Shown in pieces: positions 1-8,357 of a DNA stretch of 8,357 nt. The position numbers were made by a program, and so were the translations under genes. Source of the stretch: Nitrospira sp. Lineage in GTDB: Bacteria > Nitrospirota > Nitrospiria > Nitrospirales > Nitrospiraceae. The stretch's first letter is position 1, and the number at the start of each line of letters is the position of its first letter. Location of the stretch: contig JABMDE010000047.1 in NCBI GenBank assembly GCA_015904055.1, forward strand, positions 13,225 through 21,581. Reading direction: 5' to 3'. The notes under the pieces are model-generated. The model had not been told where the DNA came from. It was given only the letters and a program-made list of their open reading frames with translations, and ran no database searches.

Positions 1-752
1 GGGCGTCGGTTGTCCATGAGGATGTGAGTCTGTCGATCCGGCAGGGTGAAGTCTTCGCGATCGCCGGAGGCAACGGCTGCGGCAAGTCCACGCTGTTGCG
101 TGAAATTATCGGCCTGCTGACGCCTTCGGGTGGAACCATCAAGATTTTGGGAGTCGATAGCCGGCACTTGGGGGAGAGCAATGGGCAGCGGATTCATCGT
201 CGGGTCGGGGTCATGTTTCAGCATGGCGCCCTGTTCAGTTCGCTCACGCTGGCGGAAAACGTAGCTGTGCCGTTGCGCGAGCATACGGATCTGAACCCAG
301 GATTGATTCGTGAGATCGTTGCCATCAAGATCGCCATGGTGGGGTTGCCGACGGACAGCGGCGTGAAATTTCCTAACGAGCTGAGCGGAGGCATGAGACG
401 GCGGGCCGCCCTCGCCCGCGCGATCGTCATGGACCCGGAGCTGCTCTTTCTTGACGAACCGACGGCCGGGTTGGATCCAATGATTGCCGCGGGGTTTGAC
501 GATCTCGTCCTGTCGTTGAAACACCTCTTGGGGTTGACGGTCGTCATGGTGACGCACGATCTGGATTCTCTGTGGCGCATCGCCAACCGGGTGGCGGTGC
601 TGGGCAAGGGCAAAGTGCTGGGGGTCGGAACCATGCAGGAGCTGTCGCAATCCGATGACCCGGTGATCAAAGAATATTTCCACGGTCCACGCGGGCGTGC
701 GGCGCTGGAACAGGCAGCATGGAACGGCCGGCTTGTCAGGGAGCAAGGGTAA
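1..752 (+). CDS. mlaF: MlaF-like ABC transporter ATP-binding protein (5' partial)
   Basis: ATPase subunit of an MCE/Mla phospholipid ABC transporter; it should sit on the cytoplasmic face and drive lipid movement across the envelope. The frame is open from base 3 through the window edge, so the true start lies upstream; the GTG at 24 is internal to the nucleotide-binding domain. Counting that GTG as residue 1, Walker A is GGNGCGKST (15-23), the Q-loop glutamine is Q66, the ABC signature LSGGM is at 120-124 followed by an RRRAALARA stretch typical of MlaF, Walker B LLFLDEP is at 140-146, and the H-loop histidine is H178. All catalytic motifs are intact. It is followed after about 100 bp by mlaD, the usual mlaE-mlaF-mlaD order; mlaE is presumably just outside the window. 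MlaF is favoured over other ABC ATPases because of the downstream MCE protein and auxiliary lipoprotein. Confidence 0.93.
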   Translation, partial: ASVVHEDVSLSIRQGEVFAIAGGNGCGKSTLLREIIGLLTPSGGTIKILGVDSRHLGESNGQRIHRRVGVMFQHGALFSSLTLAENVAVPLREHTDLNPGLIREIVAIKIAMVGLPTDSGVKFPNELSGGMRRRAALARAIVMDPELLFLDEPTAGLDPMIAAGFDDLVLSLKHLLGLTVVMVTHDLDSLWRIANRVAVLGKGKVLGVGTMQELSQSDDPVIKEYFHGPRGRAALEQAAWNGRLVREQG

Positions 753-839
753 GGCGTTGACCGTCAACCGTCATGCGTCAATCGTCAGAACGGCGACTCT
801 TTCTCCACGAGTGACGTGTGATGCTTGTCGAATGACGAA
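753..839. repeat. Head-to-head 7-bp repeat array in the mlaF-mlaD spacer
   Basis: The spacer is almost entirely 7-bp units. Five plus-oriented units of form NNCGTNN lie at 753-787 (for example ACCGTCA twice, TGCGTCA, ATCGTCA). After a 24-bp centre, four units in the opposite orientation (TGACGNN-like: TGACGTG, TGATGCT, TGTCGAA, TGACGAA) run at 812-839 in exact 7-bp phase. The two arms are complementary, so a long imperfect hairpin or cruciform is possible. The second arm ends 15 bp before the mlaD ATG. Function unknown; the same word family recurs in the next two spacers. Confidence 0.8.
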
Positions 840-854
840 ACAGGTACGTTGAGC

Positions 855-1804
855 ATGGAACCAAAAGTGAACTACATCCTCGTCGGTGCCTTTGTCGCTA
901 TCCTTGGCGCGGCGGTGTTGATCGGTCTTCTCTGGCTGGGGAAAACCGACTACCGGGGCATCTATGACCGCTACGAGGCCTACTTTCGCGAATCGGTGGC
1001 AGGCTTGAGTGTGGACTCGACGGTTAAATATCGCGGTGTCGAAAGAGCATTACCTTGAATCCCGATAATCCCGAGGAGGTCAAGTTGACGCTGGATATCG
1101 CCAGTGGCACGCCGGTCAAGACGGATACCATCGCCGTCCTCGTGACACAGGGGCTCACTGGTCTGGCGACGATCAATTTGACCGGAGGCAGCCGGGAAGC
1201 GTCGCGGTTGGAGGTCTTGGAAGGGCAGGTGTATCCGGTCATCAAAACCGGCCCCTCCTTGTTCTTTCGGTTGGATGAAGCGATCTCCCGCTTGCTGTCC
1301 GAGAAGGGATTGAGCAAGCTTCTGGTGGATCTGGACGTAGTGGCCAAAGGGGCAGCGGATGCGCTGGATGAAGAAAATCGTACGGCGTTGAAGCGAACGA
1401 TCACCGATCTTTCTGAGGTCGTGCACTCTGTCGCGGCCCATCGGGCACAGATCGAGGCAGGCCTGAGCGGCGCCGCCCAAAGCGCCGACAATCTTGTCAA
1501 GATTACGGCGGCGTTGAATGAGCAGGTGCCGGTTATGCTGGCGCGGATTAACAAGAGCGCAGCCGCCTTGAATGCGATGACGGACGAACTCGCGCAAACA
1601 AGCAAGGCGGTGCGGGCGGTGGTGAATGACGGCCGGCCTGAATTGGAACAGTTCTCGCGGAAGACTTTGCCCGAAGCCGGGTTATTGGTGACGGAACTGA
1701 GGGAGCTGGCCACGACGCTGACGCGGGTGGCGCGGGATCTGGAACGTGAGCCTGAGTCGCTCGTGTTTGGGCGGAAGCCTGTGCCGCGTGGACCGGGAGA
1801 GTAA
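855..1804 (+). pseudogene. mlaD: mlaD copy 1: MCE-family lipid-binding protein, frameshifted by a net 13-bp deletion
   Basis: MlaD is the membrane-anchored, periplasmic MCE subunit that binds phospholipid for the MlaFE transporter. The start ATG at 855 is chosen because it gives the family N-terminus (MEPKVNYILVGAF), one transmembrane helix at about residues 6-28, then the MCE domain; a TTG at 825 would add 10 residues. The frame runs to a stop at 1056-1058. The rest of the protein continues in another frame to 1804: the end of the MCE domain and a helical, coiled-coil-like tail. Alignment to the second copy (6237-7110) shows 13 bases missing between 1042 and 1043. Restoring them gives 320 codons in one frame. 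The loss hits the conserved VxYxGVxVGxV core of the MCE fold, so it cannot be fixed by simple frame slippage. The product of 855-1058 would be an anchor plus a short stub. Confidence 0.88.
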
Positions 1805-1806
1805 GA

Positions 1807-1897
1807 TACGTCAATCGTATCTCGTGAAGCGTGAAGCGCAGGATAGGAAGGGAGCATGCTCATCTTTGTTCGCGAGATACGCTTCACGAACGACGGG
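1807..1897. repeat. Head-to-head 7-bp repeat array in the mlaD-lipoprotein spacer, copy 1
   Basis: Five plus-oriented units (TACGTCA, ATCGTAT, CTCGTGA, AGCGTGA, AGCGCAG) fill 1807-1841. Four opposite-oriented units (TCGCGAG, ATACGCT, TCACGAA, CGACGGG) fill 1870-1897. The arms give perfect inverted repeats: TCGTGAAGCG (1822-1831) with CGCTTCACGA (1880-1889), or alternatively CGTATCTCG (1816-1824) with CGAGATACG (1873-1881). A hairpin in the mRNA between mlaD and the lipoprotein gene is therefore plausible. It overlaps the start of the lipoprotein gene's ribosome-binding region (1895-1902). Confidence 0.8.
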
Positions 1898-1908
1898 AGA
1901 GGCTGCAG

Positions 1909-2541
1909 ATGAAGTCTTGGACGATCCTGGCGGCTCTTGCGATGTTGGCACTGACGGCGGGCGGTTGTCTTTCCTCCCGCTCGGAGTCACAGCCCACCCA
2001 TACCTATCGCTTGAGTCTTGATTCAGAGCGCACTGAGGTCCGTCCAGCCGACATCAACGGCCCGATCTTGCAGGTCAGCCTGCCGCTGGCCGAGCCTGGA
2101 TTTGAGACGCCTCGGATGGTGTATGTGAAGCGTCCCTATGAGTTGGAGCATTACGCCCTGAATCAATGGGCCGATCAGCCGGCGCGCATGTTCGCGTCCT
2201 TGATGGTACAAGCGCTGGGTTGGACCGGATCGTGGCGCGCCGTCGTCCCATCGCCAGGTTCCATTCGCGGAGATTTCCGCCTTGACTCCTATGGGTTCTC
2301 CTTGCAGCAGGAATTTATGCAGGACCCCAGTCTGGTGAGGGTCATAGTTCGCGCGCAATTGGTCGAGATGAAAGAGTCGCGGGTGGTAGGGTCACGCGCA
2401 TTTGAAGCAGTGGAGCAGGCGCAAAGCAACGACGCATACGGCGGCGTGGTGGCCGCAAATCGGGCGATTGCCGTGCTGCTCGACGACCTGGCCTCATGGC
2501 TCAGGGAATGCATGAAACACTCGCCTGAATGCAGCCGTTGA
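1909..2541 (+). CDS. ABC-type transport auxiliary lipoprotein (PqiC/YmbA-like), copy 1
   Basis: A 210-residue lipoprotein of the ABC transport auxiliary family, commonly encoded beside MCE proteins. Related PqiC is outer-membrane anchored and thought to complete the periplasmic lipid path. The ATG at 1909 is preceded by GGGAGAGG (1895-1902) with 6-nt spacing, and gives a signal peptide of a short charged start and hydrophobic core ending at C20. The lipobox reads A-G-G-C, less canonical than V-A-G-C in the second copy (7222-7854). The mature part begins with an S/E-rich linker, then Y-R-L-S-L strands and the conserved Y-E-L-x-x-Y/W-A-D-x-P-A-R segment typical of the family. It is in the mlaFD operon; family assignment is firm, the exact partner is inferred. 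Confidence 0.85.
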   Translation: MKSWTILAALAMLALTAGGCLSSRSESQPTHTYRLSLDSERTEVRPADINGPILQVSLPLAEPGFETPRMVYVKRPYELEHYALNQWADQPARMFASLMVQALGWTGSWRAVVPSPGSIRGDFRLDSYGFSLQQEFMQDPSLVRVIVRAQLVEMKESRVVGSRAFEAVEQAQSNDAYGGVVAANRAIAVLLDDLASWLRECMKHSPECSR

Positions 2542-2556
2542 GCAGGCGCATATCAA

Positions 2557-2598
2557 GACGTAAAACGTAAAATGTGAAAAGTAAGGCGTGATGTGTAG
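2557..2598 (+). repeat. 7-bp repeat array upstream of the cytochrome c gene
   Basis: Six in-phase units: GACGTAA, AACGTAA, AATGTGA, AAAGTAA, GGCGTGA and a weak TGTGTAG. This is the same NNCGTRA word as in the upstream spacers, but here only one orientation is present and units are more A-rich. It fills most of the gap between the lipoprotein gene and the cytochrome c gene. No rho-independent terminator is visible here, so read-through into the cytochrome gene is possible. Confidence 0.7.
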
Positions 2599-2635
2599 GA
2601 GTGAGGGAGAAAAGAGCAAAAAGAAACAACAACCC

Positions 2636-2986
2636 ATGATGAGCCGGACTCTTGCTGTTGTGTGCCTGTTGACGATGGGCTGTTGGTTTGCGGCACCCGT
2701 AACAGGGCTTGCAGCAGGCGAACGCAATCTAGCCCGAGGCAAGAAGCTCTATGAGAAGTATTGCCTGGCCTGTCATGGCCCGTTGGGCCGGGGGGATGGA
2801 GCCGTGCAATTTGACCCTGCTGTTGCGGACCTGACTTCAAGCGAGGTGCTCATGAAGCCGGACTCCCGCCTCTTGAAGAGCATCCACGAGGGACGACCGA
2901 ATACTGCGATGGATGCCTGGAAATCCAAACTGTCGGACGAGGCCATCCGAGACGTCCTCGCCTATGCGCTGACCTTCCCGCGGTAG
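2636..2986 (+). CDS. Small periplasmic class I monohaem cytochrome c
   Basis: A 116-residue electron carrier. From the ATG at 2636 (a second ATG follows at once) there is a signal peptide with hydrophobic core at about residues 5-22 and a likely cleavage after the LAA near residue 27. The haem-binding motif is C43-L-A-C46-H47 and the probable sixth ligand is M92 in the T-A-M-D-A-W segment, followed by the usual C-terminal helix (LSDEAIRDVLAYAL). Length and layout fit a single-domain cytochrome c. Start choice is uncertain: ATG at 2591 has an AAGG 4 nt upstream and would add 15 mostly charged residues, whereas 2636 lacks a clear Shine-Dalgarno but gives a standard signal peptide. Its redox partner is not visible. 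Confidence 0.87.
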   Translation: MMSRTLAVVCLLTMGCWFAAPVTGLAAGERNLARGKKLYEKYCLACHGPLGRGDGAVQFDPAVADLTSSEVLMKPDSRLLKSIHEGRPNTAMDAWKSKLSDEAIRDVLAYALTFPR

Positions 2987-3004
2987 CGGAGTTGATGAAG
3001 CGGG

Positions 3005-3487
3005 ATGAAAGCGTCATGGAAAACCGGCCTCAGTTTCGGATTGACCTCCGGCGTCATCACGACACTTGGTTTGATGGTGGGGCTGCACTCAGGAACGCAT
3101 TCGCGCACGGTCGTGATCGGCGGGATTCTGACCATTGCGATTGCCGATGCCATGTCCGATGCTCTCGGCATCCACGTATCTGAAGAGTCGAACAACAGCG
3201 GGTCTACGCGGCATGTCTGGGAGGCGACCCTGGCGACCTTCGCCGCAAAGTTCGTCATCGCGATGAGCTTCGTTGTTCCGGTTGTGCTGCGTCCACTCGA
3301 TCAGGCGATTGTGATCAGCGTAGTCTGGGGCATGTTCTTACTGGCGGCGCTCAGTTTCTTCGTCGCGCGGGCCCAAGCCATTCCGGCCTGGAAGGTGATC
3401 GGCGAACATCTCTTTATCGCCCTGTGGGTTGTGGCGATTACGCATGCAGTCGGTAATTGGGCTCAAGGGTTCGTCGAAGCAGAATGA
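3005..3487 (+). CDS. VIT1/CCC1-like integral membrane protein
   Basis: A 160-residue, very hydrophobic protein with about five transmembrane segments (roughly 8-28, 35-55, 78-95, 99-120, 128-150). The N-terminal half, with G-L-T-S-G-V-I-T-T-L-G-L, a G-G-I-L-x-I-A-I-A-D-A-M-S-D stretch and H-V-S-E-E-S, resembles the first part of the VIT1/CCC1 family of iron/manganese transporters, though acidic metal-binding repeats of the full family are not obvious. The assignment is by pattern only; transport of a divalent metal is an inference. ATG at 3005 lies 18 nt after the cytochrome c stop, so cotranscription is likely; the ribosome-binding site is weak. Confidence 0.72.
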   Translation: MKASWKTGLSFGLTSGVITTLGLMVGLHSGTHSRTVVIGGILTIAIADAMSDALGIHVSEESNNSGSTRHVWEATLATFAAKFVIAMSFVVPVVLRPLDQAIVISVVWGMFLLAALSFFVARAQAIPAWKVIGEHLFIALWVVAITHAVGNWAQGFVEAE

Positions 3488-3500
3488 AAAGAGAATTGCG

Positions 3501-4037
3501 GTGAGTAGCGAAACCAGGACAACGCAACAAGAATCCGGTCTTGAGGCGACCTACGATCATCTCCTGACCCTCTGGACCTCAGGGGTGCGGGATTATCACT
3601 CGATGCTCTCAGACTACTTGACGGCCAATTCCATCTTCGTTGCCGTAATTGGACTGATTGTGTCGAGAGAGTCGATGGCTACGTCGCTCACTGTCCTGAT
3701 CCTCCTTCTTTGTATCTTTGGCATTCTGCTCAGTCTTCAAATGGCGATCGTCCTCGGCCGTCTTTCTGGGCAGAATGCACTGTGGGAGTGGCAGTTGAGG
3801 GGAATTGAACTGGCGCCGGAGTGGAAAGGGCAGAAACTCATCACGGGCCTCTATCGACTCCATGAAACGCGACAGATGATCGAAGATTCACGCAACGAGC
3901 CTCCCGTCTTCAAGCCGAATTGGGCGTTTCGCCAGCACCGGCAATGGTGGGCCCATCGCGCCGTCAGTTTTCCCTGGTTCTTCGGCTGTGTCTATGGCCT
4001 GTTCTTCATCTGGGCCGTGACACACCTACAGAAGTAG
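3501..4037 (+). CDS. Uncharacterised three-helix membrane protein
   Basis: A 178-residue protein of unknown function. The GTG at 3501 is preferred because it follows the previous stop by 13 nt; an earlier start would overlap the upstream gene. The N-terminus (about 1-40) is polar and soluble, followed by two transmembrane helices at about 42-55 and 62-84, a cytoplasmic-looking amphipathic, Trp-rich middle (residues 85-155, with W95, W97, W108, W141 and W149-W150), and a third helix at about 156-174. The arrangement of a leading helix, a helical hairpin and a distal membrane helix resembles small membrane families such as RipA- or SLATT-like proteins, but I cannot assign it. It is probably cotranscribed with the VIT1-like gene. 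Confidence 0.75.
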   Translation: MSSETRTTQQESGLEATYDHLLTLWTSGVRDYHSMLSDYLTANSIFVAVIGLIVSRESMATSLTVLILLLCIFGILLSLQMAIVLGRLSGQNALWEWQLRGIELAPEWKGQKLITGLYRLHETRQMIEDSRNEPPVFKPNWAFRQHRQWWAHRAVSFPWFFGCVYGLFFIWAVTHLQK

Positions 4038-4127
4038 TTGTCGGGTATTCCGTGATGAAGCCGAAAAGCAGAGGGTGTTCGTGGGAAAACAATTCGCGGT
4101 TGTAGCCATTCGACATTGAAAGCTTCA

Positions 4128-4135
4128 CAGGAGGT
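4128..4135 (+). promoter_or_regulatory. Strong Shine-Dalgarno of the OsmC-family gene
   Basis: CAGGAGGT lies 4 nt before the ATG at 4140. It is the best ribosome-binding site in the window and decides that start over an upstream in-frame start at 4116. Confidence 0.8.
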
Positions 4136-4139
4136 GAGC

Positions 4140-4574
4140 ATGGACGTTCGAAGCAAGGTGTATCTGTATCACACGACGGTGACATGGACGGAACACCGCA
4201 AAGGTACGATGTCCTGCGACGACAAACCAAATGTAGAGGTAGCGACACCGCCTGAATTCAAGGGACATGAAGGGATCTGGTCGCCGGAGGATCTGTTTGT
4301 GGCCTCGGCAAATATCTGTCTGATGACGACGTTCATCGCTGTCGCGGAGCGGGCCGGTCTGGCCTTCATTTCTTACGAGAGCTCAGCCGAAGGCCGATTG
4401 GAGTTGGTTGAAGGAAAGTTTCAGTTCACCGCCATCACGATCAAGCCGACCATTACGCTGGAGTCAGACATCGATGCAGCCAAGGCGAAAGAGTTGATTG
4501 AAAAAGCCGAAGCCCATTGTCTGATTTCCAACTCGATGAAGGCGAAAGTGACGCTGGAGTCGACGATACGGTAA
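4140..4574 (+). CDS. OsmC-family protein (peroxide-handling type)
   Basis: A 144-residue cytoplasmic protein of the OsmC/Ohr superfamily, which typically reduces organic hydroperoxides with a pair of cysteines. The family signature is visible: G45-I-W-S-P-E-D-L-F-V-A-S-A-N-I-C60 with the first redox cysteine in the long central helix, and A-E-A-H-C127-L-I-S-N-S with the second. An extra C26 is present. The length is normal for the family. The N-terminal part (W-T-E-H-R-K-G-T) matches the OsmC-like subgroup rather than Ohr proper. The start at 4140 is fixed by a strong ribosome-binding site. Substrate is unknown; a thiol peroxidase role is inferred from the two cysteines. Confidence 0.88.
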   Translation: MDVRSKVYLYHTTVTWTEHRKGTMSCDDKPNVEVATPPEFKGHEGIWSPEDLFVASANICLMTTFIAVAERAGLAFISYESSAEGRLELVEGKFQFTAITIKPTITLESDIDAAKAKELIEKAEAHCLISNSMKAKVTLESTIR

Positions 4575-4714
4575 CAGGGGGAGCAACGTATACGAGCGAG
4601 TCTGGAAGGATAGGAAAGACACCTACGTTGGCTCTGGGCCCCCAAACACGCGCGATGAAACAGTGCTCGTCCGATACACACAGTGCAGGATGGTCCTGCT
4701 ATTCCGGAAACGCA
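4575..4714. other. Convergent spacer between the OsmC-family and DUF2283 genes
   Basis: This 140-bp gap separates converging genes. It contains a perfect CGTATACG palindrome (4587-4594) and a small hairpin GCAGGA-TGG-TCCTGC near 4685-4699 without a convincing T-tract. No gene is seen. Confidence 0.4.
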
Positions 4715-4954
4715 TCATCCGGTTTTGGGTAGATGAAACTCAGCCGTCACCGGCAAGTGAAGCGTCTCTCCCTTGGCGACACGGGAAGAGAAAAAGAGGA
4801 TCTCAAGATTCTCAAGATCGTGCGTCTGCGGATTGAGCCGGGCAACCACCCCGTAATCGAGCTCTTCGGAGTCCTGTTCAGGGTAGGGTTTAGTTTTCCC
4901 AAGATAGAGAATATCGCCGGCCTTGTCGTATTCCACCGCCAAGGACGTGTCCAT
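4715..4954 (-). CDS. DUF2283 family small protein
   Basis: A 79-residue protein of the DUF2283 family, whose function is unknown. The diagnostic core is visible: V-E-Y-D-K-A-G-D-I-L-Y-L near residues 7-18, an acidic middle (E-L-D-Y-G-V-V-A-R-L-N), then L-E-N-L-E-I-L-F-F-S-S-R. The start is the ATG at 4954 because a full AGGAGG (4964-4969, read on the minus strand) lies 9 nt upstream; the longer frame to 5005 adds sequence with no family likeness. Members often sit next to toxin-antitoxin genes or in accessory regions, as here beside brnTA. It is transcribed in the same direction as brnTA but about 200 bp away, so a shared transcript is uncertain. Confidence 0.8.
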   Translation of the reverse strand: MDTSLAVEYDKAGDILYLGKTKPYPEQDSEELDYGVVARLNPQTHDLENLEILFFSSRVAKGETLHLPVTAEFHLPKTG

Positions 4955-5114
4955 GTTACCGTTCCTCCTGAAAGTTGCCGAGCCACATACGCCGTCACGA
5001 CCCAATACCGTTCTGCGGAGGGGGATCGGCGACCATTCAGCCCTATATACGAACGGGGAGAAAAGACTCCCGGTCCATTTTCTTCGTCCGTGCTATCTTG
5101 TCGGCCGGATCGGT

Positions 5115-5159
5115 AAATCAACCAGATGAACCAAAGAGACCAGACAGACCAGAAGAACC
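5115..5159 (+). repeat. 9-bp tandem repeat array, left of brnTA
   Basis: Five in-phase 9-bp units: AAATCAACC, AGATGAACC, AAAGAGACC, AGACAGACC, AGAAGAACC. It ends 1 bp before the brnA stop codon (5161-5163). A near copy lies at 5842-5886, on the other side of the brnTA module. Confidence 0.8.
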
Positions 5160-5160
5160 G

Positions 5161-5454
5161 TTACGCGGCTTTGGAGGCGGCCTTTTCTAAGAGTTCATGG
5201 ATCAGTGTTTGATAGGGTTTCCTTTGCTTGGCGGCCATCTTTCGAAGCTGGCTCAATAGCCGCGGCGAGAGACGAATGGCGATCAATTGCTTGGCCATGC
5301 CGCTGGCCGGTCTGCCGACCCGCCGCATGCGCTTCAATTGTGCGTCTGTAGCTTCCGGGATGTCAGAAAAATCAATCTGCGAGTCGGGCATAGGCTTGAC
5401 GTTCCTTGCGACTTGCCTGTCTGGCACTGATAATGCGGATCGTTTCTTTTTCAT
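5161..5454 (-). CDS. brnA: BrnA-like antitoxin
   Basis: A 97-residue antitoxin of the BrnA family; it would bind and neutralise the BrnT toxin and repress the operon through its C-terminal ribbon-helix-helix-like DNA-binding domain. The start is the ATG at 5454 (MKKKRSAL), supported by GGAGGG (5461-5466 on the minus strand) 6 nt upstream. The N-terminal half is basic and flexible; the D-F-S-D-I-P-E-A-T-D-A-Q-L segment (about residues 28-40) is the family's toxin-contacting motif, and R-R-V-G-R-P-A-S-G then Q-L-I-A-I-R-L-S-P-R-L-L precedes the helical C-terminus with the Y-Q-T-L-I-H-E-L-L segment. The first 83 bp overlap the 3' part of brnT, indicating translational coupling. The antitoxin itself looks intact. 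Confidence 0.85.
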   Translation of the reverse strand: MKKKRSALSVPDRQVARNVKPMPDSQIDFSDIPEATDAQLKRMRRVGRPASGMAKQLIAIRLSPRLLSQLRKMAAKQRKPYQTLIHELLEKAASKAA

Positions 5455-5620
5455 GTGTTGCCCTCCGTCTCGTATACACCACAAAGAGGATTCGTCCCGT
5501 CAATGATCGACCGATGCGCTGACGCCGACGTTCGTGTGTCGAGTGTTCTGGGTCGTCGCCATCCAGCGCATCGGAGTCGGCGAAGTTGGCGATGGCCTTC
5601 GGAATGTCCCACGTAAACAC
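5372..5620 (-). CDS. brnT: BrnT-like toxin, probably internally deleted
   Basis: BrnT toxins are RelE-fold ribonucleases. This one starts with GTG at 5620 (MFTWDIPKAIAN, the family start) and ends with the expected T-I-R-I-I-S-A-R-Q-A-S-R-K-E-R-Q-A-Y segment. Family members have about 90-95 residues, with a K-H-G-V-x-F block between the WDxxKAxxN start and the F-x-D-x-x-A-L strand. Here residue N12 joins directly to F13-A-D-S-D-A-L, so roughly 14 residues are missing in frame. The DNA at the join has near-repeats (ATCGCCAAC and TTCGCCGAC) that could have mediated a slip. The remaining central strands and RIISAR motif are intact. I infer weak or absent toxicity. The family alignment is from memory; comparing with close homologues would settle it. 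Confidence 0.8.
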   Translation of the reverse strand: MFTWDIPKAIANFADSDALDGDDPEHSTHERRRQRIGRSLTGRILFVVYTRRRATHEKETIRIISARQASRKERQAYARLAD

Positions 5621-5625
5621 ATTGC

Positions 5626-5656
5626 CGTATATACGCTAATAGCCGCATGATCGCAA
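5626..5656 (-). promoter_or_regulatory. Candidate brnTA promoter with overlapping palindromic operator
   Basis: On the minus strand TTGCGA (-35, 5651-5656) and TATATA (-10, 5628-5633) are separated by 17 nt. The -10 lies inside a perfect palindrome CGTATATACG (5626-5635). A start of transcription 6-7 nt downstream would fall at about 5621, next to the GTG start of brnT (an out-of-frame ATG is at 5622), so the toxin mRNA would be nearly leaderless. BrnA-type antitoxins are known autorepressors, so the palindrome is a candidate operator. Matches are partial (4 of 6 in each box). Confidence 0.45.
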
Positions 5657-5761
5657 GACTGAGGGAGAGTGGGGAACAAGAAAGGGGAGACAAGGCACCG
5701 TGCGGAAGCGAAGCCAGTCCTCGGTTATGTACAGGAGCCTATACGGCGGTGAGTGGATCGG

Positions 5762-5830
5762 TCGGGTGTCAGGACTCGAACTCTGTGCGGGGGATGCCGC
5801 TCTGCCGGATAATTGAAATGAGGGTGCCGA
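5762..5830 (-). pseudogene. Possible degenerate tRNA remnant
   Basis: Read on the minus strand, tRNA-like elements occur in the right order: 5' acceptor-like TCGG (5827-5830), D-arm-like CAATT...GGCAGAGC (5799-5816), T-loop-like GAGTTCGAGTCC (5772-5783), and 3' acceptor-like CCGA (5762-5765) able to pair with the 5' TCGG. The stretch between the D-arm and T-arm is about 10 nt too short for an anticodon arm plus variable loop, the D-loop is too long, the T-stem has an extra A, and no CCA follows. If real, it is a decayed tRNA and could mark an old integration site. Confidence 0.25.
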
Positions 5831-5841
5831 TAGCGAGTTCC

Positions 5842-5886
5842 ACAAAGACTAGATGAACCAAATAGACCGGATAGACCAGAACGACA
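5842..5886 (+). repeat. 9-bp tandem repeat array, right of brnTA
   Basis: In-phase 9-bp units AGATGAACC (5851), AAATAGACC (5860), GGATAGACC (5869) and AGAACGACA (5878), with a weaker first unit at 5842. The AGATGAACC unit is identical to one at 5124 in the left array, and unit order is the same, so the two arrays are copies. Together they flank 5160-5841. Confidence 0.75.
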
Positions 5887-5906
5887 GTTAACGGTCGTCT
5901 TCCATG

Positions 5907-6025
5907 CTGTAGCATCCTGCGCCAGTGGCAGAAATGACGCTGGGGTGTTTCTCACCAACTCTCTTTCCTCCTTGCCGTGACGATCAGACCCAAACCGGCT
6001 AAACCCGCGATGGACTGAAGAGTTT
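5907..6025. repeat. 119-bp direct repeat, left copy
   Basis: Matches 7955-8073 in the same orientation with about 10 differences by eye and no gaps. It contains a hairpin (GCGCCA 5919-5924 with TGACGC 5935-5940): one pair is a mismatch in plus-strand RNA but a G-U wobble in minus-strand RNA. On the minus strand a short frame includes a hydrophobic helix-like stretch, but substitutions do not clearly favour silent sites, so coding is doubtful. The two copies bracket the second mlaD-lipoprotein block. Confidence 0.85.
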
Positions 6026-6092
6026 CCTTTCCATCGGCTGCCTAGCTTGGTGGCATACCACTCGCAAGATCTCCACATGCGAGAGGTTGTCC

Positions 6093-6260
6093 ATGCGTCC
6101 CATCGAAATCGGGCTCGGTTTGTTCATCGGGATTCTATCGGCTGGATTTGCCGGAGGGGTGGGGTTGAAGGACCTCACTTCAGCGGGAAAAGAGGGAGAT
6201 TCGGTCAGCGGGCGGGAAATCTATGTCAACACCTGCAACCGACTACCGGGGCATCTATGA
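6093..6260 (+). pseudogene. Truncated cytochrome c gene, cut inside its haem motif
   Basis: An ATG at 6093 with GAGAGG 6 nt upstream opens a frame with an N-terminal hydrophobic segment (residues about 5-25) and a periplasmic start ending S-G-R-E-I-Y-V-N-T-C48-N-R. That is the usual run-up to a CxxCH haem motif, but after about residue 49 the DNA becomes mlaD copy 2 read in another frame, and translation stops at 6258-6260. The join lies at the AACC at 6237-6240, which is also present at the matching mlaD site (944-947). The haem motif and the whole cytochrome fold are lost. It is not a copy of the intact cytochrome at 2636-2986. Confidence 0.75.
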
Positions 6261-7110
6261 CCGCTACGAGGCCTACTTTCGCGAATCGGTGGCAGGCTTG
6301 AGTGTGGACTCGACGGTTAAATATCGCGGTGTCGACGTGGGGCGGGTGAAGAGCATTACCTTGAATCCCGATAATCCCGAGGAGGTCAAGCTGACGCTGG
6401 ATATCGCCAGTGGCACGCCAGTCAAGACGGATACCATCGCCGTCCTGGTGACACAGGGGCTTACCGGTTTGGCGACGATCAATTTGACCGGAGGCAGTCG
6501 GGAAGCGTCGAGGCTGGAGGTCTCGGAAGGGCAAGTGTACCCGGTTATCAAAACCGGCCCCTCCTTGTTCTTTCGATTGGATGAAGCGATCTCCCGCTTG
6601 CTGTCCGAGAAGGGATTGAGCAAGCTCCTGGTGGATCTGGACGTAGCGGCCAAAGGGGCGGCAGATGTGCTGGATGAAGAGAATCGTACAGCGTTGAAGC
6701 GAACGATCACCGATCTTTCCGAGGTCGTGCACTCTGTCGCGGCCCATCGGGCTCAGATTGAAGCAGGTCTAAACGGTGCCGCCCAAAGTGCCGACAATCT
6801 TGTCAAGATCACGGCGGCATTGAATGAGCAGGTGCCGGTCATGCTGGCGCGGATCAACAAGAGCGCAGCCGCCTTGAATGCGATGACGGACGAACTCGCG
6901 CAAACAAGCAAGGCGGTGCGGGCAGTGGTGAATGACAGCCGGCCTGAATTGGAACAGTTCTCGCGGAAGACTTTGCCCGAAGCCGGGTTATTGGTGACGG
7001 AACTGAGGGAGCTAGCCACGACGCTGACGCGGGTGGCGCGGGATCTGGAACGTGAGCCTGAGTCGCTCGTATTCGGGCGGAAGCCTGTGCCGCGTGGACC
7101 GGGAGAATAA
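6223..7110 (+). CDS. mlaD: mlaD copy 2: MCE protein lacking its membrane anchor
   Basis: Duplicate of the mlaD at 855-1804, homologous from 6237 on. The frame is intact to the stop at 7110, including the 13 bases (6336-6348) missing from copy 1, so the MCE core V-K-Y-R-G-V-D-V-G-R-V is whole. The first 30 residues of MlaD, which contain the only transmembrane helix, are replaced by a five-residue start (M-S-T-P-A) from the cytochrome junction. The 295-residue product would be cytoplasmic and unable to sit in the transporter, so it is probably a non-functional remnant. The ATG at 6223 lies inside the truncated cytochrome reading frame, has no clear ribosome-binding site, and might be reached only by re-initiation after the stop at 6260 or from the upstream site. 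Beyond position 6377, codon changes relative to copy 1 are nearly all silent. Confidence 0.85.
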   Translation: MSTPATDYRGIYDRYEAYFRESVAGLSVDSTVKYRGVDVGRVKSITLNPDNPEEVKLTLDIASGTPVKTDTIAVLVTQGLTGLATINLTGGSREASRLEVSEGQVYPVIKTGPSLFFRLDEAISRLLSEKGLSKLLVDLDVAAKGAADVLDEENRTALKRTITDLSEVVHSVAAHRAQIEAGLNGAAQSADNLVKITAALNEQVPVMLARINKSAAALNAMTDELAQTSKAVRAVVNDSRPELEQFSRKTLPEAGLLVTELRELATTLTRVARDLEREPESLVFGRKPVPRGPGE

Positions 7111-7112
7111 CA

Positions 7113-7210
7113 TCCGTGAATCGTATCTCGTGAAGCGTGAAGCGCAGGACGGAAAGGGAGCATACTCATCGTTGTTTGCGAGATACGAGATACGCTTCAC
7201 GAATAACGGG
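7113..7210. repeat. Head-to-head 7-bp repeat array in the mlaD-lipoprotein spacer, copy 2
   Basis: Five plus-oriented units at 7113-7147 and five opposite-oriented units at 7176-7210 (TTGCGAG, ATACGAG, ATACGCT, TCACGAA, TAACGGG). Copy 1 (1807-1897) has only four units in the right arm; the extra ATACGAG at 7183-7189 accounts for the 7-bp length difference between the two spacers. TCGTGAAGCG (7128-7137) pairs perfectly with CGCTTCACGA (7193-7202). Confidence 0.8.
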
Positions 7211-7221
7211 AGAGGCTGCAG

Positions 7222-7854
7222 ATGAAGTCTTGGACGATCCTGGCGGCTCTTGCAATGTTGGCATTGACGGTGGCCGGTTGTCTTTCCTCCCGCTCGGAGT
7301 CGCAGCCCACCCATACCTATCGTTTGAGTCTTGATTCAGAGCGCACGGAGGTCCGTCCAGCCGACATCAACGGCCCGATCTTGCAGGTCAGCCTGCCGCT
7401 GGCTGAGCCGGGATTTGAGACACCTCGGATGGTGTATGTGAAGCGTCCCTATGAGTTGGAGCATTACGCTCTGAATCAATGGGCCGACCAGCCGGCGCGC
7501 ATGTTCGCGTCATTGATGGTACAAGCGCTGGGTCGAACCGGATCGTGGCGAGCCGTCGTCCCATCGCCGGGCTCCATTCGCGGAGATTTCCGCCTTGATT
7601 CCTATGGATTCTCGCTACAACAGGAATTTATGCAGGATCCCAGTCTGGTGAGAGTCACAGTTCGTGTGCAATTGGTCGAGATGAAAGAGTCGCGGGTGGT
7701 AGGGGCACGCGCATTTGAAGCGGTGGAGAAGGCGCAAAGCAACGACGTCTACGGCGGCGTAGTGGCCGCGAATCGGGTGATTGCCGCGCTGCTCGATGAC
7801 TTGGCCTCCTGGCTTCGTGACTGTGCGCGTCATTCACCGGAATGCAGTCATTGA
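7222..7854 (+). CDS. ABC-type transport auxiliary lipoprotein (PqiC/YmbA-like), copy 2
   Basis: Paralogue of 1909-2541, also 210 residues, with about 14 residue differences by eye, several in the last 13 residues and in the lipobox. The signal peptide ends in a canonical V-A-G-C20 lipobox, better than the A-G-G-C of copy 1, and the ribosome-binding site GGGAGAGG with 6-nt spacing is kept. The frame is fully intact with the conserved family segments. So this gene may still be expressed and functional even though the mlaD copy before it has lost its anchor, and it could serve the transporter encoded at 1-1804. Its promoter is not evident. Confidence 0.85.
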   Translation: MKSWTILAALAMLALTVAGCLSSRSESQPTHTYRLSLDSERTEVRPADINGPILQVSLPLAEPGFETPRMVYVKRPYELEHYALNQWADQPARMFASLMVQALGRTGSWRAVVPSPGSIRGDFRLDSYGFSLQQEFMQDPSLVRVTVRVQLVEMKESRVVGARAFEAVEKAQSNDVYGGVVAANRVIAALLDDLASWLRDCARHSPECSH

Positions 7855-7862
7855 GCAGACTG

Positions 7863-7888
7863 TAGGCAGCTTGCGATGCTCTTGCCTA
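7863..7888 (+). terminator. Weak hairpin after lipoprotein copy 2
   Basis: TAGGCA (7863-7868) and TGCCTA (7883-7888) form a perfect 6-bp stem with a 14-nt loop, 9 bp after the stop codon. There is no T-tract, so it is a poor intrinsic terminator and may be something else. Confidence 0.25.
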
Positions 7889-7954
7889 TCCGGGCGTGCA
7901 TCCCACAGTGACGTTGGAGCCGGTCACCCGCTAACGACATTGCTTCTCTCTCAA

Positions 7955-8073
7955 CTGTAGCATCCTGCGTCAGTGGTAGAAATGACGCTGGGGTGTTTCT
8001 CTCCAACTCTCTTTCATCCTTGCCGTGACGATCAGACTCAAGCCGGCTAAGCCCGCGATGGACCGAAGGGTTT
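7955..8073. repeat. 119-bp direct repeat, right copy
   Basis: Direct copy of 5907-6025, starting exactly 2048 bp further right. The internal stem is perfect here: GCGTCA (7967-7972) with TGACGC (7983-7988). It starts about 100 bp after the second lipoprotein gene. Confidence 0.85.
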
Positions 8074-8107
8074 GCCACTCGTCGCCAGTGGACATGAATG
8101 GGGCAGA

Positions 8108-8185
8108 ATGGGCTGTGGAGAAGGCATGGACCCTATGATGGGACTGGGTGGCAGGATGGGCGGCATGGAGCATAGCGGACAGTAA
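8108..8185 (+). CDS. Short Met/Gly-rich open frame, doubtful
   Basis: A 25-residue frame with seven methionines, one cysteine (C3) and one histidine (H22), of the form M-D-P-M-M-G-L-G-G-R-M-G-G-M-E-H. Such composition is seen in tails of copper- or silver-handling proteins. The frame is open upstream to 8051 but has no other good start and no strong ribosome-binding site. It is either the 3' end of a lost gene, a small peptide, or chance; I favour a gene remnant. Confidence 0.25.
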   Translation: MGCGEGMDPMMGLGGRMGGMEHSGQ

Positions 8186-8290
8186 GGTACATAGAAGAAT
8201 GAAGAGTCGACGATACGGGCGACGAAAAAGGATTTGAACCGGCCGCCGCTGCCGGATATGATGTCGGCTAATCAAATAAGGGAGGTCGGC

Positions 8291-8357
8291 ATGAACGCAT
8301 TCTCAATGATCGGAGCAGGGGTCGCCGTTGGGTTGATTCTGAGCGGCTGCTCGTCGT
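8291..8357 (+). CDS. Lipoprotein, N-terminal part only (runs off the window)
   Basis: An ATG at 8291 preceded by GGGAGGT (8280-8286, 4-nt spacing) opens a frame with a hydrophobic signal segment (residues 6-17) and a canonical lipobox L17-S18-G19-C20 followed by serines. The mature protein lies outside the window, so its role cannot be stated. Confidence 0.72.
   Translation, partial: MNAFSMIGAGVAVGLILSGCSS

Follow-up and report, generated by a model that had tools for sequence, protein, structure and literature searches.

Two broken mlaD copies and an apparent second, gapped pass through the same locus in a Nitrospira contig

The window analysed here is a stretch of 8,357 nucleotides from Nitrospira sp. 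(assembly GCA_015904055.1, contig JABMDE010000047.1, positions 13,225 to 21,581), and it carries two copies of the lipid-transport gene mlaD, both of them broken. We divide the window at a junction between positions 6236 and 6237 into unit 1 (1-6236; unit A or version A when strains are discussed) and unit 2 (6237-8357; unit B or version B); features lie on the plus strand unless stated otherwise. Unit 1 opens with an mlaF-like ABC ATPase gene (3..752, PF00005 at 112.7 bits), whose 5' end lies beyond the window and whose top NCBIfam match is MlaF at 176.3 bits, under the equivalog cut-off of 441. It is followed by mlaD copy 1 (855..1804), an open gene for an ABC transport auxiliary lipoprotein (copy 1, 1909..2541, PF03886 at 45.1 bits), the c-type cytochrome gene cytA (2636..2986, PF13442 and PF00034), a gene for a VIT1-family-like membrane protein (3005..3487, PF01988 at 31.2 bits against a cut-off of 28.1), and an osmC gene encoding an OsmC-like protein (4116..4574, PF02566), whose final codons are unlike those of the related loci L002, L040, and L042. 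An inserted block on the minus strand (4715..5620) contains a DUF2283-like gene, weakly matched and under the Pfam cut-off, and a BrnA/BrnT-type pair. The unit ends with the first 48 codons of cytB, a second c-type cytochrome gene (6093..6236, 89% identical to genome G002 over 129 bases), which is truncated by the junction; the 49-codon stretch itself has no Pfam match.

Unit 2 starts with mlaD copy 2 (6237..7110) and an open second copy of the lipoprotein gene (7222..7854, PF03886 at 47.8 bits). After a short interval (7859-7902), to which the comparison with relatives assigned no source, come about 32 bases of the tail end of osmC, including its stop codon (7903..7934), with the remainder of the gene gone; the tail is similar to loci L005 (93% over 30 bases), L003 (87% over 30), and L004 (89% over 28). 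Next are a second copy of the cytB upstream region (7955..8073) and the 3' tail of a third cytochrome gene, cytC (8082..8185), which is 81% identical to G002 over 78 bases and whose counterpart in G004 is the end of an open reading frame (ORF) bearing a CxxCH motif. The last feature is the start of a lipoprotein gene that runs past the window end (8291..8357), which we take to be sodC-like; its counterpart in G004 is an ORF, and 8218-8357 is 83% identical to that genome.

The two units share a block in direct orientation, 944-2545 in unit 1 and 6237-7858 in unit 2, with 92.2% identity over 1622 columns, 20 gap positions, and a start-to-start distance of 5293. A repeat of 1.6 kb at 92% is far beyond chance. 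The sequence-only reading had described this block and, within it, an anchored but frameshifted mlaD and an open but anchorless one, and in all of this it was borne out. Copy 1 has 13 bases fewer than copy 2 at 1042/1043, so that the frame holding its start at 855 closes at 1058, while the remainder is open as 1055-1804. Copy 2 is open as 6223-7110, its ATG at 6223 sitting within the cytB remnant in a different frame, and it matches PF02470 (MlaD) at 64.4 bits against a cut-off of 25.1, residues 14-91 aligning with positions 4-81 of the 81-position profile; the two pieces of copy 1, searched separately, have no PF02470 match. As read from the sequence, copy 2 begins downstream of the N-terminal anchor of its 320-amino-acid relatives, and copy 1 carries this anchor in the frame that ends at 1058, so it is literally true that each copy carries what the other lacks, and an anchored open MlaD is found in neither. 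We considered whether the signal part of the cytochrome might be fused in frame to mlaD and rejected this, as 130 bases separate the two starts (6093 and 6223) and the frames therefore differ.

Intact relatives of 320 amino acids with 93-97% identity (P0001-P0008) exist in public data. The protein search yielded 1818 matches among 7998 candidates scored; among the best 120 listed, intact 320-amino-acid relatives reach 97% and none is identical, the listing being by 90% clusters whose members are not visible. The search of solved structures by sequence gave six distinct sequences, all MCE-type by name. The copy 2 protein finds 13 loci, all titled as metagenome-assembled genomes of Nitrospira or Nitrospiraceae, with L001 (96% protein identity) and L002 (93%) at the top. 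Judged by eye, copies 1 and 2 share residues unseen in P0001-P0008.

Several further features of the mlaD region were seen. Between mlaD and the lipoprotein gene, both units have an intergenic element with inverted arms (1809-1890 and 7115-7210), which has many matching places in the genomes of L001-L005 and which, we presume, is akin to dispersed REP-type repeats. In L001 (5847-6923), the matches to mlaF and to mlaD overlap, with no spacer such as the window has, and 3' of mlaD the sequence does not resemble the window as far as the end of the contig.

Three observations go beyond the sequence-only reading, namely the cytB start to the left of mlaD copy 2, a second direct repeat (5907-6025 and 7955-8073, 92.4% identity) formed by the two cytB upstream regions, and a run of 141 identical columns at the beginning of the mlaD alignment. 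The other 720 columns of that alignment hold 40 differences. An identical run as long at the start occurred in 11 of 20000 shuffles, and such a run anywhere in 528 of 20000. In this same stretch, 9 of 137 columns differ between L001 and copy 1 (67 of 861 overall), so the run is not merely a conserved stretch. It points to recent homogenisation or to an assembler switching strains near the junction.

At the junction itself (6236..6238), two unrelated sequences meet with about one base in common. In L002, L003, L005, and L040, cytB runs on, with its CxxCH motif, where the window departs into mlaD; the cytB of the strain itself past 6236 is outside the window, and the junction was judged from the cytB of these relatives. 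With so little shared sequence, the join looks like end-joining without homology. We scanned 79 genomes of the genus, many of them drafts, scoring at most seven candidates per genome. The segment 6093-6700 had some match in 70 of the 79 genomes and its mlaD part in 68, yet none of the 79 spanned the junction, the largest overhang being about 20 bases (G003 and G005). The mlaD part was matched twice in only two of the 68 genomes (G026 and G060), on different contigs, and never twice on one contig. For 7701-8357, part of the segment was matched in 26 of the 79 genomes, and in none did the match extend across its two gaps beyond a few bases. Plasmid records searched for the window gave no match, and an exact 25-base junction pattern had no matches in viral contigs, which carries little weight for a chromosomal locus.

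The order of the pieces explains the composition of unit 2. In all five relative stretches compared (G002, G003, G004, G005, and G023), taking the best same-strand match per piece, the order is mlaD, lipoprotein gene, cytA, VIT1-like gene, osmC, cytB upstream region, and cytB. In four of the five, the cytC tail and then the sodC-like start complete this order; in G023 these two pieces are beyond the stretch compared, their matches lying further along the same contig. When all matches are listed, mlaD, the lipoprotein gene, and osmC each have one place in the five stretches. Because its pieces follow the order seen in relatives, 6237-8357 is a second pass through the same locus, interrupted by two large gaps. 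Several rearrangement points fall within the 2.1 kb of unit 2.

The two passes differ between osmC and cytB. About 1.3 kb lies between osmC and the cytB upstream region in unit 1, holding the DUF2283-like gene and the BrnA/BrnT-type pair, and neither strand of the five stretches from relatives has a match to 5164-5620. Unit 2 lacks this insertion: its osmC tail adjoins the cytB upstream region, as in G023. The corresponding spacing is about 120 bases in G004 and G005 and about 1.4 kb in G002, where other sequence lies between. Unit 2 thus seems to keep the layout without the insertion, with which a duplication predating the insertion is also compatible. As to the block itself, the match of the BrnT-like frame (5375-5620, minus strand) to its Pfam profile does not begin until position 19 of 77, and the start of the frame looks shortened. 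An imperfect 43-base direct repeat (5121-5163 and 5848-5890, 84%) flanks the BrnA/BrnT genes, similar stretches being present in L002; it may mark how the BrnA/BrnT block arrived. Additionally, an exact 15-base repeat links the osmC end (4557-4571) with a stretch upstream of the sodC-like gene (8204-8218); none was expected from 200 shuffles, and it is present in none of the 51 loci compared. The osmC end of unit 1 departs from its relatives near this repeat, and a further rearrangement may hide there.

To see how the copies diverged, we consider the rates of change. On the 3' side of the 13-base gap, 40 differences separate the mlaD copies, 35 of them silent and 5 changing an amino acid (Ks 0.205, Ka 0.0091, Ka/Ks 0.044), and their Ks to L001 is 0.243 and 0.257. 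Among 40 random mutations of the same spectrum, 25.7 would be expected to change an amino acid, with a minimum of 16 in 2000 runs, which is a signal of purifying selection. When the changes are sorted with L001 and L002, copy 1 has 4 derived amino-acid and 10 silent changes and copy 2 has 0 and 15, with 11 assigned to neither (Fisher p 0.042 for the difference between the copies, one test). This hints at relaxed constraint in copy 1, and there is no such hint for copy 2. The lipoprotein copies have Ks 0.304 and a Ka/Ks ratio of 0.124; sorted with L002 alone, their derived changes are 4 amino-acid and 14 silent in copy 1, and 6 and 15 in copy 2, with 10 assigned to neither. Constraint thus seems to act on both lipoprotein genes, a little less on copy 2. 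The low Ka/Ks and the lack of derived amino-acid changes in copy 2 indicate that the mlaD copies diverged as constrained, working genes and broke late; the damage to both looks recent. Since copy 2 has been anchorless for as long as the junction has existed, the junction should be far younger than the divergence of the copies, unless an anchorless copy 2 still works. In the cytB remnant, codons 13-48 show 1 amino-acid change against 5 silent codon changes relative to L002, and as these are mostly silent, cytB was probably cut recently. Dating by the remnant alone is merely suggestive, because the signal part varies in both relatives compared.

These observations lead us to favour, tentatively and at somewhat less than even chances, two strain-level versions of one locus that were joined recently in a cell by a one-sided illegitimate event. 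Version A would comprise mlaF, mlaD with the 13-base gap, the lipoprotein gene, cytA, the VIT1-like gene, osmC, the BrnA/BrnT block, and the cytB start; version B would comprise the later part of mlaD, the lipoprotein gene, the insertion-free osmC tail, the cytB upstream region, the cytC tail, and the sodC-like start. DNA of a related strain would have entered the cell, and one of its ends would have been joined without homology, in an end-joining-like manner, between cytB and mlaD. The other end, outside the window, would have been joined by ordinary homologous recombination, replacing the intervening DNA. The absence from unit 2 of the osmC-cytB insertion of unit 1 is in keeping with a meeting of two strain versions. 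The origin of version B in another strain and the making of the join in a cell are the parts that we infer.

Several facts weigh against this account. A separate version B locus was not found, since none of the 79 genomes matches across the gaps of unit 2 (at most seven candidates scored per genome), and the presumed homologous end falls outside the window. The 141 identical columns beside the junction are not predicted by a simple import from strain B. Judged by eye, derived residues are common to the two units, which would make unit B a close sister of unit A, as an in-genome copy would be too, and the derived changes of lipoprotein copy 2 include the six amino-acid changes given above, against four in copy 1. 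Finally, the dating by cytB is not clean: codons 1-12 show 6 amino-acid and 3 silent codon changes relative to L002, and codons 13-48 show 8 and 10 relative to the more distant L040.

A rival account is that the assembler joined two co-occurring strains, perhaps passing from A to B within the stretch of identical columns. That stretch lies directly beside the junction and is followed by 5.6% divergence; the two units have diverged at the strain level, the junction is unmatched in the 79 genomes, the rearrangement points are crowded into 2.1 kb, and the record may be metagenomic. On the other hand, a k-mer assembler should not by itself create a join with about one shared base, and some physical molecule should therefore carry it. 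Nor is the sequence generally poor, as open frames are kept in cytA, the VIT1-like gene, osmC, and the two lipoprotein copies. We consider an assembly chimera unlikely on balance, though a serious competitor to a cellular join.

Less probable still is an old tandem duplication within the genome, with a unit of approximately 944-6236, whose second copy decayed through two large deletions while copy 1 of mlaD suffered a small one. A head-to-tail duplication would give the order and orientation seen here, the residues shared by the mlaD copies and absent from P0001-P0008 (by eye) suggest sister copies, and the insertion in unit 1 could be later than the duplication. However, the anchor would have been lost at the duplication, yet mlaD copy 2 has since acquired only silent derived changes, which has a chance of about 2e-7 if it were unconstrained; unit 2 also lacks the insertion between osmC and cytB, and none of the 68 genomes with an mlaD match, many of them drafts and with at most seven candidates scored in each, has two on one contig. 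The sequence-only reading had offered decay of both copies or an assembly error as possibilities, and both are still live, although simple decay of an old in-place duplication is argued against by the Ks and Ka/Ks of mlaD. Free decay of the second copy we reject, since that copy was not free of constraint.

It is very improbable that the second unit is a working pair of an anchorless MCE protein and a lipoprotein, selected after the anchor loss, which would provide a soluble or lipoprotein-held MlaD relative beside a dead copy. The accidental or reversible on/off arrangement of mlaD raised by the sequence-only reading has no support and is extremely improbable. The direct 1.6-kb repeats with their identical first stretch could recombine, but a crossover between direct repeats would yield deletion of the intervening 5.3 kb, not inversion, and would not be reversible. 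Pfam scans of 14 translated stretches, which did not include every short ORF, turned up no recombinase family, the sole inverted pair of at least 30 bases found is a 71% match inside unit 1 away from mlaD, and the junction is unmatched in the 79 relatives.

Should the join be real, the window would show in legible form how DNA passes between Nitrospira strains by one-sided illegitimate integration; should it come from the assembler, calls of gene loss made on contigs of this kind, here for mlaD and cytB, would be wrong. In either case, complementary broken genes in one contig can mimic a switch or a duplication that has aged, while the rates of change suggest strain versions joined late. Our literature search found no paper uniting Nitrospira, Mla, phospholipid, and pseudogene.

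Among known systems, we regard the observation as an ordinary kind of event. Chimeric metagenome contigs of related strains are a known phenomenon, and the window resembles them in having two strain-level versions in one contig with an identical stretch beside the switch point; unlike in them, the sequence common to cytB and mlaD at the junction is about one base. The mlaF, mlaD, and auxiliary lipoprotein genes stand in the order of an mlaFED-type phospholipid transport operon, as presented in PMC7790496, but here both mlaD copies are broken, and by the standard of that paper neither is likely to work in the usual complex. Integration that is homologous on one side and illegitimate on the other has been described as homology-facilitated illegitimate recombination (PMC3240628). 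As there, one end of unit 2 appears joined without homology and the unit is a diverged version of the resident locus, whereas here the homologous end would lie outside the window. In mosaic natural transformation of Bacillus subtilis, several discontinuous donor segments are integrated close together (PMC13344027); although large stretches are also missing here, unlike in that system, the window shares with it short patches of identity and divergence lying side by side.

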